Shown: in pieces, positions 33,736 to 54,721 of the stretch
Layout of the letters: each line of letters starts with the position of its first letter
How positions within the stretch are numbered: the stretch's first letter is position 1
NCBI GenBank assembly: GCA_023957375.1
Contig: JAMLHB010000002.1
Location: 1,116,001 to 1,180,000, forward strand
Direction of reading: 5' to 3'
From: Flavobacteriales bacterium
GTDB lineage: Bacteria > Bacteroidota > Bacteroidia > Flavobacteriales_F > PHOS-HE28
DNA length: 64,000 nt
Notes under the pieces: generated by a model
Database searches by the model: none
Told to the model about the DNA's origin: nothing
What the model saw: the letters and a program-made list of their open reading frames with translations, nothing else
Made by a program: the position numbers and the translations under genes

Positions 33736-34055
33736 GGCCTACGCAGGGCAATCGCGGCTTAACCGGTTGATGGAATTGGCGCCCGGCAGCGGCATGCCGC
33801 TGAAATTCAACCACGGATCCACGCGGATGGGCACGGATGAATACATAGGTGCCCAACATGACATCCGATCAAAGATCAAAGTTCCGGTTTGGGCCCATCC
33901 GCGTGGATCCGTGGTTGATATCGACCAAACCAGCGCTCACAGGGCACCCAACGCACGATAGCCCCGAGGGCTCCGCGCTATTTACCGTGGTGCTTCCTAT
34001 CTTCGGTCCAATATCGTCCAAGGGGATGGGTTGGACAAACGAATACGTACCGAAG
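33736..34055. other. Gene-free stretch with a perfect 26-bp inverted repeat
   Basis: 320 bases without a gene. It holds the palindrome CAGCGGCATGCCGCTG (33787-33802), then two perfectly complementary 26-base arms at 33807-33832 and 33893-33918 separated by 60 bases. The arms are built of CCACGGATCCACGCGGATGG-type units (ACGGAT motif). Nothing else was recognised before the signal peptide at 34056. Confidence 0.75.
33807..33918. repeat. ACGGAT-type inverted repeat
   Basis: Perfect 26-base inverted arms (33807-33832 and 33893-33918) around a 60-base centre. The arms contain repeated GGATCCACG/CGGATGG units like those near 41743-41860. The type resembles dispersed CCACGGATGAACACGGAT repeats known from many environmental genomes. 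Confidence 0.85.
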
Positions 34056-41681: not shown

Positions 41682-41742
41682 GGAACCTGGCAAGGCTATC
41701 GGGTCTTAATCCATGCGCCTGGCGGCCCATCCACACACTGCC

Positions 41743-41860
41743 TTGAACCACGGGTCCACACGCCCCGGTGCCTGCCGGGGGAACACGGATAGGGAAGGTT
41801 AGTTTGCTTGGCAGGTGGGTCCGTGATCCGTGTTCATCGGTGTCCATCCGTGGTTTGAAT
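41743..41860. repeat. Imperfect ACGGAT-type inverted repeat
   Basis: Left arm starts TTGAACCACGGGTCCACAC (41743-41761); the right arm ends with the near-complement GTGTCCATCCGTGGTTTGAA around 41840-41859. Additional GAACACGGAT (about 41781) and ATCCGTGTTC (about 41826) units lie inside in opposite orientations. Same unit type as the repeat at 33807. Confidence 0.75.
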
Positions 41861-41974
41861 CCTATTGGAAGCCGCGCCGGCAGGGCGCGTTAGACCTGAT
41901 GGCCCCTGAGGAACCTGGCGGGCCACCGAATGGCACGGCCGGTCGGAGGTACCTTCGCGCAGCGAAAGCGACAC

Positions 41975-42484: not shown

Positions 42485-43480
42485 GGCGGCTGCTTGGGGC
42501 CGGCCTGCACGCGTCCACTCGGCGATCTGTTCCAGGTCCTGGTTTTCCATGCAGCGGAAGTGGCCCTTGGGGCAGCGGTCGAACCCGATCTTGGAGCAAG
42601 GACGGCAATCCAGGCCTTTCACCTCGCTGATGTGCACCCGTTCCGGATGCTGCGGGATGTAAGGTCCCATGCCGAATTCGGGCACGGTGTTGCCCCACAC
42701 GCTCACCAGGTTCTTCCTGAACGCACTTGCCACGTGCATGGCCCCGCTGTCATGGGCGATCACACTGTTGGCTTGCCGGATCAAGGAAGCGGAGCCCAGC
42801 AGGTCATACTTACCGGTGGCATCATAGGCGCGTGCACCCACGGCATTGGCAATGGCGCGGCCAACGATCTTGTCATCGGGCCCGCCGATGACCACCACGG
42901 GTCCGCTGAGCTTTTTCGCCAGCGCGATCAGCTTGTGCCGGGGCAGCCGCTTGGTGAAGTGCCCGGCACCGATGCACAAGGCGATGTAACCGTTGCGGTG
43001 CGTGGCGGGCAAGGCGGAGGGCGCTATTTCCTTTTCCGACGGAATGAACAAGTCCAGCCCCAGGCCGTCGTTCTTCACGCCCAGGTGCGCTACGGTGGCC
43101 AAGTAGCGATCCACAATGTGGATGCGAGGCAGTTTATCTACCTTGAAGTTGACCAGCAGCCACTTCTCCCAATTTAGCTTCGCGAAGCTCTTCGCCCGTG
43201 CACCTAAGGCGAGTTTCACCCGCAGGGTGCGCAGGTTGTGGTGCAGGTCCACCACCAGGTCGAACCGCTCTTGCTTCAACACCCTGATCGTTGCGCCAAG
43301 GTCGTCCTTCAGAACATGCACGTGGTCCACATAGGGGGAATGCGCAACCAGTTCGCGAAAGGCGTCCTTGGTGAGGAAGTGGACCTCCGCCCCCGGAACT
43401 TGCTGCTTGAGGCATCGCAACACCGGCGAGGTGAGAATGATGTCGCCGATGGAACTGAAGCGGATGACCAGGATCTTCAT
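42470..43480 (-). CDS. Glycosyltransferase family 9 (LPS heptosyltransferase type)
   Basis: 336 residues. MKILVIRFSSIGDIILTSPV opens the GT9 fold, with VIGGPDD and HDSGAMHVASAFRKNLVSVWG near the ADP-heptose site. It probably adds a heptose or related sugar to lipopolysaccharide core; the exact acceptor is unknown. A TACCTTTG element 11 bases upstream of the start is its promoter. Confidence 0.92.
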   Translation of the reverse strand: MKILVIRFSSIGDIILTSPVLRCLKQQVPGAEVHFLTKDAFRELVAHSPYVDHVHVLKDDLGATIRVLKQERFDLVVDLHHNLRTLRVKLALGARAKSFAKLNWEKWLLVNFKVDKLPRIHIVDRYLATVAHLGVKNDGLGLDLFIPSEKEIAPSALPATHRNGYIALCIGAGHFTKRLPRHKLIALAKKLSGPVVVIGGPDDKIVGRAIANAVGARAYDATGKYDLLGSASLIRQANSVIAHDSGAMHVASAFRKNLVSVWGNTVPEFGMGPYIPQHPERVHISEVKGLDCRPCSKIGFDRCPKGHFRCMENQDLEQIAEWTRAGRPQAAASGEN

Positions 43481-43491
43481 GCAAGCGGGCG

Positions 43492-43499
43492 CAAAGGTA
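43492..43499 (-). promoter_or_regulatory. TAnnTTTG -7 element of the GT9 gene
   Basis: TACCTTTG on the minus strand, exact consensus, 11 bases before the start at 43480. Confidence 0.6.
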
Positions 43500-43541
43500 C
43501 TGGCCGCCTTGTCGTACTTTCATGAAAGCCGCACCTTTGCA

Positions 43542-43549
43542 GTACTTTG
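43542..43549 (+). promoter_or_regulatory. -7-like element before tatD
   Basis: GTACTTTG, a one-base-shorter variant (TAnTTTG), 20 bases before the tatD ATG and divergent from the GT9 promoter. The same TACTTTG form appears before the S9 peptidase gene. Confidence 0.4.
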
Positions 43550-43569
43550 CACGACCGTGTTTTCAGCGC

Positions 43570-44337
43570 ATGTACATCGACACGCACACACACCTCTACC
43601 ACAAACAGTTCGACCAGGACCGCAACGAAATGGTGCGGCGGGCGCTGGATGCCGGCGTTCACAAACTGTTCCTGCCGAACATCGACATCACCAGCGTGGA
43701 AGCACTGCACACGATGTGCGACGAGCACCCGGATACCTGCTTCCCCATGATGGGCCTGCATCCGTGTTCCGTTGGAGAAGATCCCAACCGCGACCTGGCC
43801 GAGGTGGAGCGCCTGCTGGGCACGGGGCGTTACTGGGCCGTGGGCGAGATCGGCATCGACCTGCACTGGGACAAGACCTGGATCGAACAACAGAAGGATG
43901 TTTTCCGGCGGCAAGTGCGGTGGGCGAAAGACCTGGCCCTGCCCGTGGTGATCCATTGCCGCGAGAGCTTTGAGGAAGTAATGGCCATTGTGGAGGAGGA
44001 GAACAACGAGCATCTTACCGGCGTGTTCCATTGCTTCACGGGCACGGAAGAGGAAGCACGGCGCGTGATCGGACTTGGCGGCTTCAAACTGGGCATCGGC
44101 GGGGTGATCACCTACCCCAAGAGCGGCCTTGCGGAAACCATGGCCCTGGTGGGCGCCGCGCACTGTGTGCTGGAAACCGATTCACCCTACCTGGCTCCGG
44201 TGCCCTACCGCGGCAAGCGTAACGAGAGTAGCTACATCCCGCACATCGCTGAAGCCTTGGCCGCCGCGGTAGGCCTGCCCGTGAAGGAAGTGGCCCGCAT
44301 CACCACGGCCAACGCCGAGCAGCTCTTCGAGGAATGA
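43570..44337 (+). CDS. tatD: TatD-family metal-dependent DNase
   Basis: 255 residues. Metal-binding THTHLYHK at the start, GLHPCSV, GEIGIDLHWD, VIHCRESF, FHCFTGTEEE and the C-terminal ETDSPYLAPVPYRGKRNE. TatD proteins are 3'-5' exonucleases linked to DNA repair and quality control. ATG 43570 matches the family N-terminus. The stop overlaps the asparaginase start in ATGA. Confidence 0.95.
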   Translation: MYIDTHTHLYHKQFDQDRNEMVRRALDAGVHKLFLPNIDITSVEALHTMCDEHPDTCFPMMGLHPCSVGEDPNRDLAEVERLLGTGRYWAVGEIGIDLHWDKTWIEQQKDVFRRQVRWAKDLALPVVIHCRESFEEVMAIVEEENNEHLTGVFHCFTGTEEEARRVIGLGGFKLGIGGVITYPKSGLAETMALVGAAHCVLETDSPYLAPVPYRGKRNESSYIPHIAEALAAAVGLPVKEVARITTANAEQLFEE

Positions 44338-50337: not shown

Positions 50338-50463
50338 CACGCGAAGCCGCGAAGGGGGGCACGCGAAGCCGCGAAGTCGCGAAGAAGGAGGCTCACGCGA
50401 AGCCGCGAAGGCGCGAAAAAAGAGTCTCATGCGAAGCCGCGAAGAGGGATGCTCACGTGAAGG
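50338..50463 (+). repeat. Left array of GCGAAG-type units
   Basis: Four to five units of CACGCGAAGCCGCGAAG type starting at about 50338, 50360, 50392, 50426 and a degenerate one at 50452, roughly 22-34 bases apart. They are followed by A/G-rich spacers (AAGAAGGAGG, AAAAAAGAGT). Orientation is opposite to the array at 50988-51067. Confidence 0.85.
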
Positions 50464-50479
50464 AATAGGGGGATGGCAA

Positions 50480-50914
50480 TCAAGCTGTTCCTTTATTGAT
50501 GCGCAATCGGGAATTCCCGGAGGGATGGTGATTGTTCACCACGCGTCGGCATCCTTCCTTAAATGTTGCGGCGCCGAAGTTGATCAACAGGCCCAAGGGC
50601 AGATGCATCAACCGGAGATAGGTGAGCAGCTGCTTGAAGTGTACGGCCGCCAGTTGCTCAACGGATTTTAGTTCCACCACCAGCACATCGTTCACCAATA
50701 GGTCAATTCGAAGGCCGTCATTGAATTGCACCCCATCGAACTCGAAAACCACGGTCTTTTCCCGCTCCACCTTTAATCCTTGTCGTTGCAAGGCACGTGC
50801 CAGCACCGAGGCGTATACGGATTCCAGCAATCCGGGCCCGAGTTCATCGTGGATGTGGAACGCGGTGTCCACCACCATGGCCGAGAGCCTGTCCGGGTCT
50901 TTTTCCATGGTCAT
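50480..50914 (-). CDS. GxxExxY protein, predicted PD-(D/E)XK-type nuclease
   Basis: 144 residues. The name-giving motif is visible as GLLESVY about residues 25-31 (HDELGPGLLESVYASVL). A PD-(D/E)XK-like core follows: D in GLRIDLLVND, then ELK in VLVVELKSVEQLAA, and the helix FKQLLTYLRLMHLPLGLLINFG. These are the residues expected of a metal-dependent nuclease, though no activity is established for the family. The start at 50914 lies 5 bases after a TATTTTCG promoter-like sequence; 50908 is an alternative. The gene lies between inverted arrays of short repeats. Confidence 0.88.
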   Translation of the reverse strand: MTMEKDPDRLSAMVVDTAFHIHDELGPGLLESVYASVLARALQRQGLKVEREKTVVFEFDGVQFNDGLRIDLLVNDVLVVELKSVEQLAAVHFKQLLTYLRLMHLPLGLLINFGAATFKEGCRRVVNNHHPSGNSRLRINKGTA

Positions 50915-50987
50915 GAAAGCGAAAATAGGCCAGCGCGTCAAAGCATGATCATTGTGTCTAAACTCCGGCATCCAAAGTCATGGGCAT

Positions 50988-51067
50988 TCTTCGCGTCTTC
51001 GCGCCTTCGCGTGAGCCGCCGCCCAGTTAGTGTTTCGCGTCTTCACGCCTTCGCGTCTTCGCGTGAG
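50988..51067 (-). repeat. Right array of GCGAAG-type units, inverted
   Basis: Two longer blocks (about 50988-51015 and 51033-51067) composed of TCTTCGCG, CCTTCGCG and TTCGCGTGAG units, i.e. the reverse complement of the CACGCGAAG units at 50338-50463. Together the arrays bracket the GxxExxY gene. Confidence 0.85.
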
Positions 51068-51617: not shown

Positions 51618-52564
51618 ATGAACAAAAAAACTGCCCCCACTGCGGTTCGCGCCACACCCAGAAATACGGGGTTGTAAGGAAGGTTCAGCGCTTTAGATGC
51701 CATAGCTGCGGCAAGCAGTTCAGGGGTGGATACCGGGTAAGCGCGAAGGAGTTGTGGTGGGAGTATCAGTCAGGGAAGCAGACCTACGAACAGCTCGCGG
51801 CCAAGCATGGCTGTTCGGTCCGGACCATTCAGCGCAAGCTTGACCGGTACGAGGGTGCCGAGCAGGAGCTGCCGCAGCCCAGTGATGCAGTGATCCTCAT
51901 GGACACGACCTACTTCGGCCGGAGCTTTGGGGTAATGGTGTTCCGTGATGCCCTCAGCAGCCAGGTGCTCCATTGGCGCTACGTGAAGTACGAGACCAAT
52001 CAGCTGTACGCTGAGGGCTTGGCTCACTTGCGCGACTTGGGCATCGCTATAAAGGCAGTCGTCTGCGATGGTCGAAGAGGACTGCTGCAGTTGTGCTCCG
52101 GAATGCCCGCTCAGATGTGCCAGTTCCATCAGGTGGCGATCATCACCCGCTACTTGACCAGGAAGCCCAAGCTACTGGCCGCCCAGGAGTTGAGGACCCT
52201 GGTCCAACTCCTCACCAAGACCGACAAGGAGAGCTTCGTAGGCGGGCTTGAACAATGGCACGAACGCTGGGCAACGTTCCTCGCTGAACGCAGCGTGGAG
52301 GCCGCCACCGGGCGGTCACGCTACACCCACCGCAGGCTGCGCAGCGCGTACCTGAGCCTACGACGGAACCTGCCATGGCTATTCACTTGGTACGACCACC
52401 CTGGGTCGGGCATCCCGAACACCACCAACGCTATCGATGGCATGTTCGCCGGCCTGAAGAACAAACTGCGCAACCACAATGGCCTGTCTGCGACCCGGAA
52501 ACGCAAGTTCATCGATGAGTTTTTTAAGGCATGCGGACCTCGAAATGGGAACGGGCAACCATAA
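51618..52564 (+). CDS. Transposase, IS256-related with N-terminal zinc ribbon; needs a -1 shift near the start
   Basis: The N-terminal zinc ribbon (NCPHCGSRH ... FRCHSCGKQFRGGYR) runs straight into a DDE-type core: first Asp in VILMDTTYFG, second in VVCDGRRGL, the MCQFHQ motif, and the third acidic position in NTTNAIDGMFAGLK. The zinc-ribbon frame has no start codon before its upstream stop. ATG 51618 (MNKK) is one base out of phase and meets it at a run of seven A (51624-51630). A -1 slip there gives MNKKNCPHCG. Without it, only a TTG at 51752 lacking the ribbon could start. Recoding, transcript slippage or a damaging indel are all possible. Confidence 0.85.
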
Positions 52565-54420: not shown

Positions 54421-54510
54421 TGACAGGATAACAGGATGAACGCGAAGAAGGCCGCTTGTAGTAGGCTTGACACTTTGGATCCATCCTGTTCATCCTGCCC
54501 ATCCTGTCCA
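54421..54510. repeat. CAGGAT-type inverted repeat
   Basis: Left units ACAGGATAACAGGATGAAC (54423-54441) face right units GTTCATCCTGCCCATCCTG (54488-54506) in inverted orientation. Same architecture as the ACGGAT and GCGAAG repeats elsewhere in the window, with a different unit. Confidence 0.8.
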
Positions 54511-54573: not shown

Positions 54574-54721
54574 GCTTATCCAGAAAGGCGGAGGGACTGG
54601 CCCTGTGAAGCCTTGGCAACCATCGTGGCGATCGCGCCAGGTGCCAAATCCAGTTGATGTTGCTCCGCCTCGTCCTTCGGCTCCGCTCAGGACATCGGCA
54701 GGCAACAACAAGAAGATGAGC
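54574..54721 (+). ncRNA. SAM-I (S-box) riboswitch
   Basis: P1 is formed by GCTTATC (54574-54580) and GATGAGC (54715-54721). The conserved core reads AGAAAGGCGGAGGGACTGGC, then CCTGTGAAGCCTTGGCAACC and GGTGCCAAATCC, all S-box hallmarks. A long P4 (GTTGC/GCAAC base) carries an extra arm. It senses S-adenosylmethionine ahead of the methionine synthase genes. The 3' P1 strand can instead pair with CTCATC in the downstream terminator, giving a classical antiterminator. Confidence 0.95.

Follow-up and report, generated by a model that had tools for sequence, protein, structure and literature searches.

The locus and its predicted nuclease

The window, a 64,000-nucleotide stretch of a Flavobacteriales contig, belongs to a genome of 3.83 Mb (G000; other G numbers denote relatives). 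The window contains a small gene of the GxxExxY family, with a gene for a dipeptidyl-peptidase-like protein on one side and a short ORF downstream; the GxxExxY gene is bracketed by inverted arrays of short repeats; these arrays are called arms here, and gene and arms together a cassette. The features are as follows.

50480..50914, minus strand: GxxExxY / PDDEXK_3 predicted nuclease gene, 142–144 aa; TIGR04256 and PF13366 matches, AF2 fold, dN/dS
50338..50462, plus strand: left arm array; CGCGAAG units in about five clusters, forward and directed towards the gene
50987..51067, minus strand: right arm array, CGCGAAG units, reverse complement, towards the gene
33812..33914: solo inverted pair, CACGGAT/CGCGGAT units; strong hairpin, folding z = -7.7
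41692..41908: MITE (about 215 bp; TIR CAGGGCTATCGGGTCTTA) containing an inverted pair of CACGGAT units; five congeners have the site without it
54424..54510: solo inverted pair, ACAGGAT units; ACAGGAT also brackets GxxExxY genes of congeners (L166, L185)

The reading frame runs from 50480 to 50971 on the minus strand (163 aa) and is open to 50971; the probable start codon is the ATG at 50914 (144 aa) or at 50908 (142 aa). A transposase gene of an IS256-family variant (Zn-binding) lies shortly downstream of the cassette, at 51752–52564.

The protein scores 125.4 bits against TIGR04256 (cut-off 35) and 125.9 bits against PF13366 (PD-(D/E)XK; cut-off 22), exceeding both curated cut-offs of the GxxExxY family. 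The name-giving motif is kept (G24xG26..E29..Y32), and across 101 GxxExxY sequences Asp69, Glu79 and Lys81 are found at ≥90%; a RecB/Cas4-like Q93xxxY97 is also conserved in the family. These data bear out the motif and the D...ExK core that the first-pass annotation had read from the letters, as does the structure prediction that it proposed: the AF2 model has a PD-(D/E)XK fold (pLDDT 90.5, pTM 0.84). According to VIA-align the nearest solved fold is SSO0001 (Cas4; Z 8.8), followed by restriction-like proteins and Hjc. Foldseek returned no PDB match at E ≤ 0.001, and the basis for assigning the fold is thus the conserved core plus a middling Z; sequence searching of the PDB gave no convincing relative. 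By its modelled fold and D...(D/E)xK core the protein is placed in the PD-(D/E)XK superfamily, with nuclease activity predicted. It shares the predicted fold and the D...ExK...QxxxY core with the Cas4/RecB-type and Hjc-type nucleases, but differs from them in standing alone and in having no detectable sequence relative in the PDB. An HUH Y1 tyrosine transposase domain is absent: PF13366 and TIGR04256 are the only matches and the AF2 fold is different. The gene is under purifying selection, with dN/dS values of 0.04–0.14 for seven computable gene pairs (0.13 for the focal gene against the gene at the same site in G005).

Repeat arrays in the genome of the window

Between the focal arms, complementary stretches reach 34 nt (88% complementarity) and 27 nt (93%). 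The inverted arrays and the roughly five left-hand units described in the first-pass annotation are real: the left array runs forward, the right one is its reverse complement, and the counts are far above the reversed-pattern control. G000 has 28 occurrences of CGCGAAGNCGCGAAG, spread over four loci, and two of the reversed pattern; for the triple form of the general unit CRCNRAK (see below) the counts are 106 and 0. There are four GxxExxY genes in this genome, all bracketed by inverted arrays and each with a different unit. The other three are:

C3:284399: paralogue cassette, unit CGCCAAG
C1:658914: paralogue cassette, unit CACGAAT
C2:522532: paralogue cassette, unit CACGGAT

Their arms are 26–30 nt long with 90–100% complementarity, and in two of the paralogues an arm overlaps the start codon. 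Adjoining the CACGGAT cassette is a duplication (L003 1740–2180, i.e. G000:C2:522770–523210) in which the GxxExxY 5' end, its arm and the terminal part of the adjacent gene recur and would seem to have been copied jointly.

At least three further families of the same architecture had been listed for the window. Pairs of the ACGGAT type and of CAGGAT were found, whereas no separate AATGGAC family was seen, this unit appearing to belong to the CACGGATGGACACGGAT units. The CAGGAT pair adjoins a SAM riboswitch (54574–54721; RF00162, 66 bits) upstream of a methionine synthase gene. The MITE has an 18 bp TIR and target duplications of 9–10 bp, as read by eye at about ten loci; it also carries nested REP-like palindromes. 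Its site at 41692–41908 is empty in G032, G028, G005, G019 and G002, and G032 holds at least 15 copies of the element (L326–L340). Most of the numerous CACGGAT pairs in G000 and G032 are cargo of this MITE. A solo repeat is therefore no proof that the nuclease moved it, and some MITE amplification enters into the abundance correlation given below. That all solo copies are REPIN-like is ruled out for the CACGGAT population, much of which sits inside the MITE.

Inverted arms at GxxExxY genes across bacteria

Eighty loci from genome contigs and about 90 from relatives gave 165 distinct GxxExxY genes; the 80-locus sample covers Pseudomonadota, Cyanobacteriota, Planctomycetota, Verrucomicrobiota, Acidobacteriota, Bacteroidota, one Methanophagales archaeon and others. 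Using a motif-free alignment of inverted flanks, a score of ≥16 was reached by 90 of 143 GxxExxY genes (63%) and by two of 133 control small ORFs (1.5%; Fisher p = 6e-32). The statement in the first-pass annotation that such genes are often embedded in short-unit repeats thus holds generally, and the absence of enrichment that would have told against its proposal is not what the flanks show.

An arm consists of about three copies of the 7-mer CRCNRAK, 8–10 bp apart, over 24–29 bp, and a C precedes the unit in 72%. Strict triple arrays stand forward on the left of 47% of the genes and reversed on the right of 50%, compared with 7% and 13% for the wrong polarity and 0.7–0.9% in 1,495 background windows of 640 bp; the arms thus point nearly always inward, towards the gene. 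With a relaxed scan, 78% of the genes have an array of proper polarity on at least one side (background 5.4%). Thirty-nine genes lack a CRCNRAK array; inverted arms with a score of ≥17 flank 22 of these, and most of these arms are built of variant units (CGCAACG, CGCGACG, ACAGGAT and the like). Chance or low complexity as the source of the arrays is ruled out by the background windows, the small-ORF controls and the reversed-pattern controls. One genome has an amplified array of about 19 CACAGAT triplets (G254:C30:42628–44139), which stand on both sides of a GxxExxY gene (43456–43809) and in many cases follow one another in steps of 47 bp.

Hardly any neighbouring genes recur beyond close relatives. 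Divergent intergenic sites are avoided (3/57 versus 96/476, p = 0.004), as expected for tolerated insertions. GxxExxY genes are present in 51% of 198 sampled genomes of the phylum, with up to 20 copies per genome in the sample of relatives. Searching with the focal protein gave matches in eight of 72,556 plasmid records and none in the phage records; the gene is chromosomal and absent from phages. RAYTs are likewise chromosomal, and ordinary insertion sequences are unlike both in their plasmid and phage distribution.

Small genes of the four-helix-bundle family TIGR02436 (S23/IVS-type) were compared at 30 loci (L209–L238). The notion that any orphan small gene has such repeats does not hold for them, as CRCNRAK arrays were found at 0/30; unexpectedly, though, they have arrays of their own, with an inverted-arm score of ≥16 at 17 of the 30. 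The bracketing units are AGTTATTAGTTATTAG, AGTATTGAGTATTGAG, GGTATCGGGTAGTGGGT and TGTCCGATGTCCTATG (RGTNNTN-like), and G000 has seven such genes. The architecture is parallel: orphan small genes in inverted short-unit arrays in the same genomes, but with an unrelated protein and an RGTNNTN-like unit instead of CRCNRAK.

Unit spelling follows the protein tree

The spelling of the unit was compared with a tree of 107 proteins; as this has few columns and many unresolved forks, only its clustering was used and not its branching order. Position 7 of the unit (G or T) requires three changes on the tree, compared with 21.1 ± 1.3 in shuffles. Position 2 requires 22 changes (35.4 shuffled; 0/500 as low) and position 5 requires 17 (27.7 shuffled; 0/500). 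Within one genus, in which single genomes carry several paralogues, the T class forms one side of a branch (one change versus 13.1 shuffled). Shuffling among paralogues of the same genome alone gave one change versus 5.4, with 16/500 as low, a test limited by its five informative genomes. The left and the right arm have the same base at position 7 in 88 of 89 cases, and the unit spacing is 9–10 in the T class and mostly 8–9 in the G class. Unit sequence thus follows protein clade, a point that the first-pass annotation had proposed to test, and recognition of the arms by the protein is the simplest reading of this covariation. Mutual information followed by independent pairs yielded only candidates for the unit-determining residues, with no power after tree correction. 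Selection on the hairpin through compensatory change is unsupported, as position 4 agrees between left and right arms to the same extent as within an arm (0.71 in both cases), with no excess from arm pairing.

Gene-free copies and site turnover

Arms also occur without the gene. In the class-level sample of relatives, the median number of CRCNRAK triplets is 0 where GxxExxY is lacking (n = 17 genomes, maximum 3) and 3.5 where it is present (n = 36, mean 20). Triplets correlate with GxxExxY copies in this sample (rho 0.74); the partial correlation is 0.64 for GxxExxY versus 0.03 for four-helix-bundle copies. The phylum sample of 198 genomes, which partly overlaps the class-level sample, has a median of five triplets with the gene and 0 without (p = 3e-14; within-family permutation, 0/2000). 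These figures include the arms of the cassettes themselves, and were hence corrected by three triplets per gene; after this subtraction at least five triplets are left in 31% of genomes with the gene and in 7% of those without (p = 2e-5), and a rank test gives p = 0.04. The repeats are thus not equally abundant in genomes lacking the gene. Some gene-free genomes are rich in triplets (47, 43 and 15), and five gene-free congeners have 7–26, four of these five being under 85% complete; such numbers might follow gene loss.

Solo copies are usually inverted pairs, dispersed intergenically and REPIN-like. As single-stranded DNA they fold with z values of -4.8 to -9.9, as any inverted repeat would. 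At 11 loci in G044 (L342–L352) the arms are nearly identical, often TTCAC plus a CACAGAG triplet, and the spacers (4–90 bp) and flanks are unrelated between copies, so that transposition of a fixed element, or simple cut-and-paste, is insufficient as an explanation. No TIR or target duplication was seen beyond the arms of the pairs read in this genome. The GxxExxY cassettes read in G044 have CGC-type arms, despite its many CACAGAG solo pairs. In G069, CGCAAAG copies have a common spacer.

Cassettes and solo pairs are present or absent at orthologous sites in sister species, a difference that the first-pass annotation had asked about. G005 has the focal cassette at the corresponding site (neighbour protein identity 93%) and G032 lacks it (92%); in G017 about 55 bp lie between the neighbour and the same downstream gene. 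The C3:284399 cassette is common to G000 and G019, and array copy number differs between orthologous cassettes. Nine congeners lack one of the solo pairs of G044, and G027 has it in decayed form. G044, G037 and G038 have a GxxExxY gene at a common site; eight congeners lack the gene at that position, and in some of them different hairpins occupy it, e.g. a GAGTGGC-unit pair in G007. One intergenic site of the genus (L375–L384) carries a GxxExxY cassette or unrelated hairpin repeats depending on the species, and is a hot spot with turnover. No exact-junction insertion of a cassette was caught among the empty sites compared, which are about 80% identical or hold other hairpins, and G044 and G009 are too close for a view of strain-level mobility (100% identical over 19 kb).

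Discussion

The predicted nuclease and the repeats are almost certainly linked as one system, and together they look like one selfish or domesticated system. Linkage was half of what the first-pass annotation proposed, and it stands on enrichment, covariation and abundance. The other half, spreading of the repeats by the nuclease itself, we infer with evenly divided confidence, one abundant family being carried by a MITE. The arms, of about three tandem 7-mers, would be the recognition sequence of the nuclease, and an inverted pair of arms, whether or not it encloses the gene, would be the dispersing unit. The protein would bind and cut the arms and thereby cause their dispersal. It would most likely act on a hairpin or cruciform of the arm pair; action on an extruded hairpin is suggested because the inverted pair is conserved and the fold resembles those of junction-resolving and end-trimming enzymes. 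Host repair would then write copies of the arms at another intergenic position. The source would be the cassettes with a gene, and the gene-free pairs would be their non-autonomous progeny. Besides the MITE, the triplet-rich genomes lacking the gene, the CACAGAG pairs and unrelated spacers of G044, the empty sites without an exact cassette junction and the absence of a pairing signal at position 4 speak against this reading.

REPIN/RAYT systems consist of inverted short-repeat pairs in intergenic positions, with the RAYT gene flanked by the matching repeat class (PMC3116915). The likeness extends to paralogues with different classes, dispersed gene-free copies and chromosomal location (PMC3116915). 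The enzymes are different, however: PD-(D/E)XK for GxxExxY and HUH Y1 for RAYT. The repeats are different too, the GxxExxY arms being three direct 7-mers, (CRCNRAK)3, without internal palindrome or GTAG tag, whereas each single REP is an imperfect palindrome, often with a GTAG/CGTC tag. GxxExxY-type copies usually number tens, not the hundreds of REPINs, and their spacers can differ wholly between copies. As we looked for an HUH transposase and palindromic REPs and found neither, the system is not filed under REPIN/RAYT. That GxxExxY and CRCNRAK-type arms form a co-evolving, REPIN/RAYT-like system with a PD-(D/E)XK nuclease and dispersal of arm pairs is our preferred reading, which we judge equally open to either outcome. 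A bolder form we hold tentatively and at somewhat less than even strength: a second, unrelated solution to the REPIN/RAYT lifestyle, in which a PD-(D/E)XK nuclease would recognize arrays of three 7-mers and drive inverted pairs of these to disperse across bacterial chromosomes, while a parallel four-helix-bundle system would use other 7-mers in the same genomes.

The main rival keeps arm recognition and leaves dispersal to recombination. The arms would then be sites that a resident nuclease binds or processes while serving the host or regulating itself (by trimming hairpins or junctions, in repair or defence, or in controlling its own expression), and ordinary recombination and template switching would multiply and move the repeats. 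Strong purifying selection, retention at the same site in sister species and a chromosomal gene (eight of 72,556 plasmids, no phage record) are consistent with this, as are the arms overlapping the start codon in two paralogues, the differing array copy number of orthologous cassettes and the best fold matches, which include Cas4 and Holliday-junction resolvases. On its own, however, it leaves unexplained why gene copies predict gene-free repeats across families and why the solos have the form of inverted pairs, and we regard it as possible but rather unlikely.

It is distinctly improbable that ordinary transposons or MITEs carry the gene and arms as passengers, with a DDE transposase spreading the repeats. 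Such elements do combine short gene-free forms having inverted ends with gene-bearing ones; the CACGGAT pairs at 41692–41908 and at no fewer than 15 loci of G032 are contained in a MITE that has TIRs and target duplications, and an IS256-variant-type transposase gene is at hand at 51752–52564. Elsewhere, though, the arms themselves form the boundary and there are no common flanks; no TIR was seen in the flanks read beside the CACGGAT cassette, nor any TIR or target duplication beyond the arms of arm-bounded cassettes. Cassettes without transposon ends have already been seen in many lineages, the arm unit covaries with protein clade over many phyla and the GxxExxY protein is not a DDE transposase.

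The Coxiella IVS is a selfish element of 428 nt that carries the S23 ORF (PMC4990558). Inverted arms around a small ORF recall this element, and the four-helix-bundle genes of the genus have the same architecture; the cassettes could accordingly be RNA-level selfish elements like the intervening sequences of 23S rRNA, the arms pairing in the transcript and being processed out or stabilizing it. We think this very unlikely, as the sites are intergenic with no rRNA insertion, the arms are conserved tandem 7-mers of fixed polarity, position-4 variation shows no extra pairing and the protein has a PD-(D/E)XK nuclease core. Least credible of all is a toxin–antitoxin pair with the repeats as an RNA antitoxin, as in type III systems: tandem repeats do precede the nuclease gene, but they are inverted on both sides rather than direct and upstream of the toxin only, and their units, at 8–10 bp, occur by the dozen without the gene.

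In the openly accessible papers searched we found none linking GxxExxY genes to repeats and no stated function. With a sequence that it very probably recognizes, the orphan GxxExxY family becomes a testable protein–DNA system. This link accounts for a large group of intergenic repeats hitherto without explanation, in taxa ranging from Bacteroidota to Cyanobacteria, and gives a RAYT-independent case in which to ask how a resident enzyme and short repeats coexist over time in bacteria.
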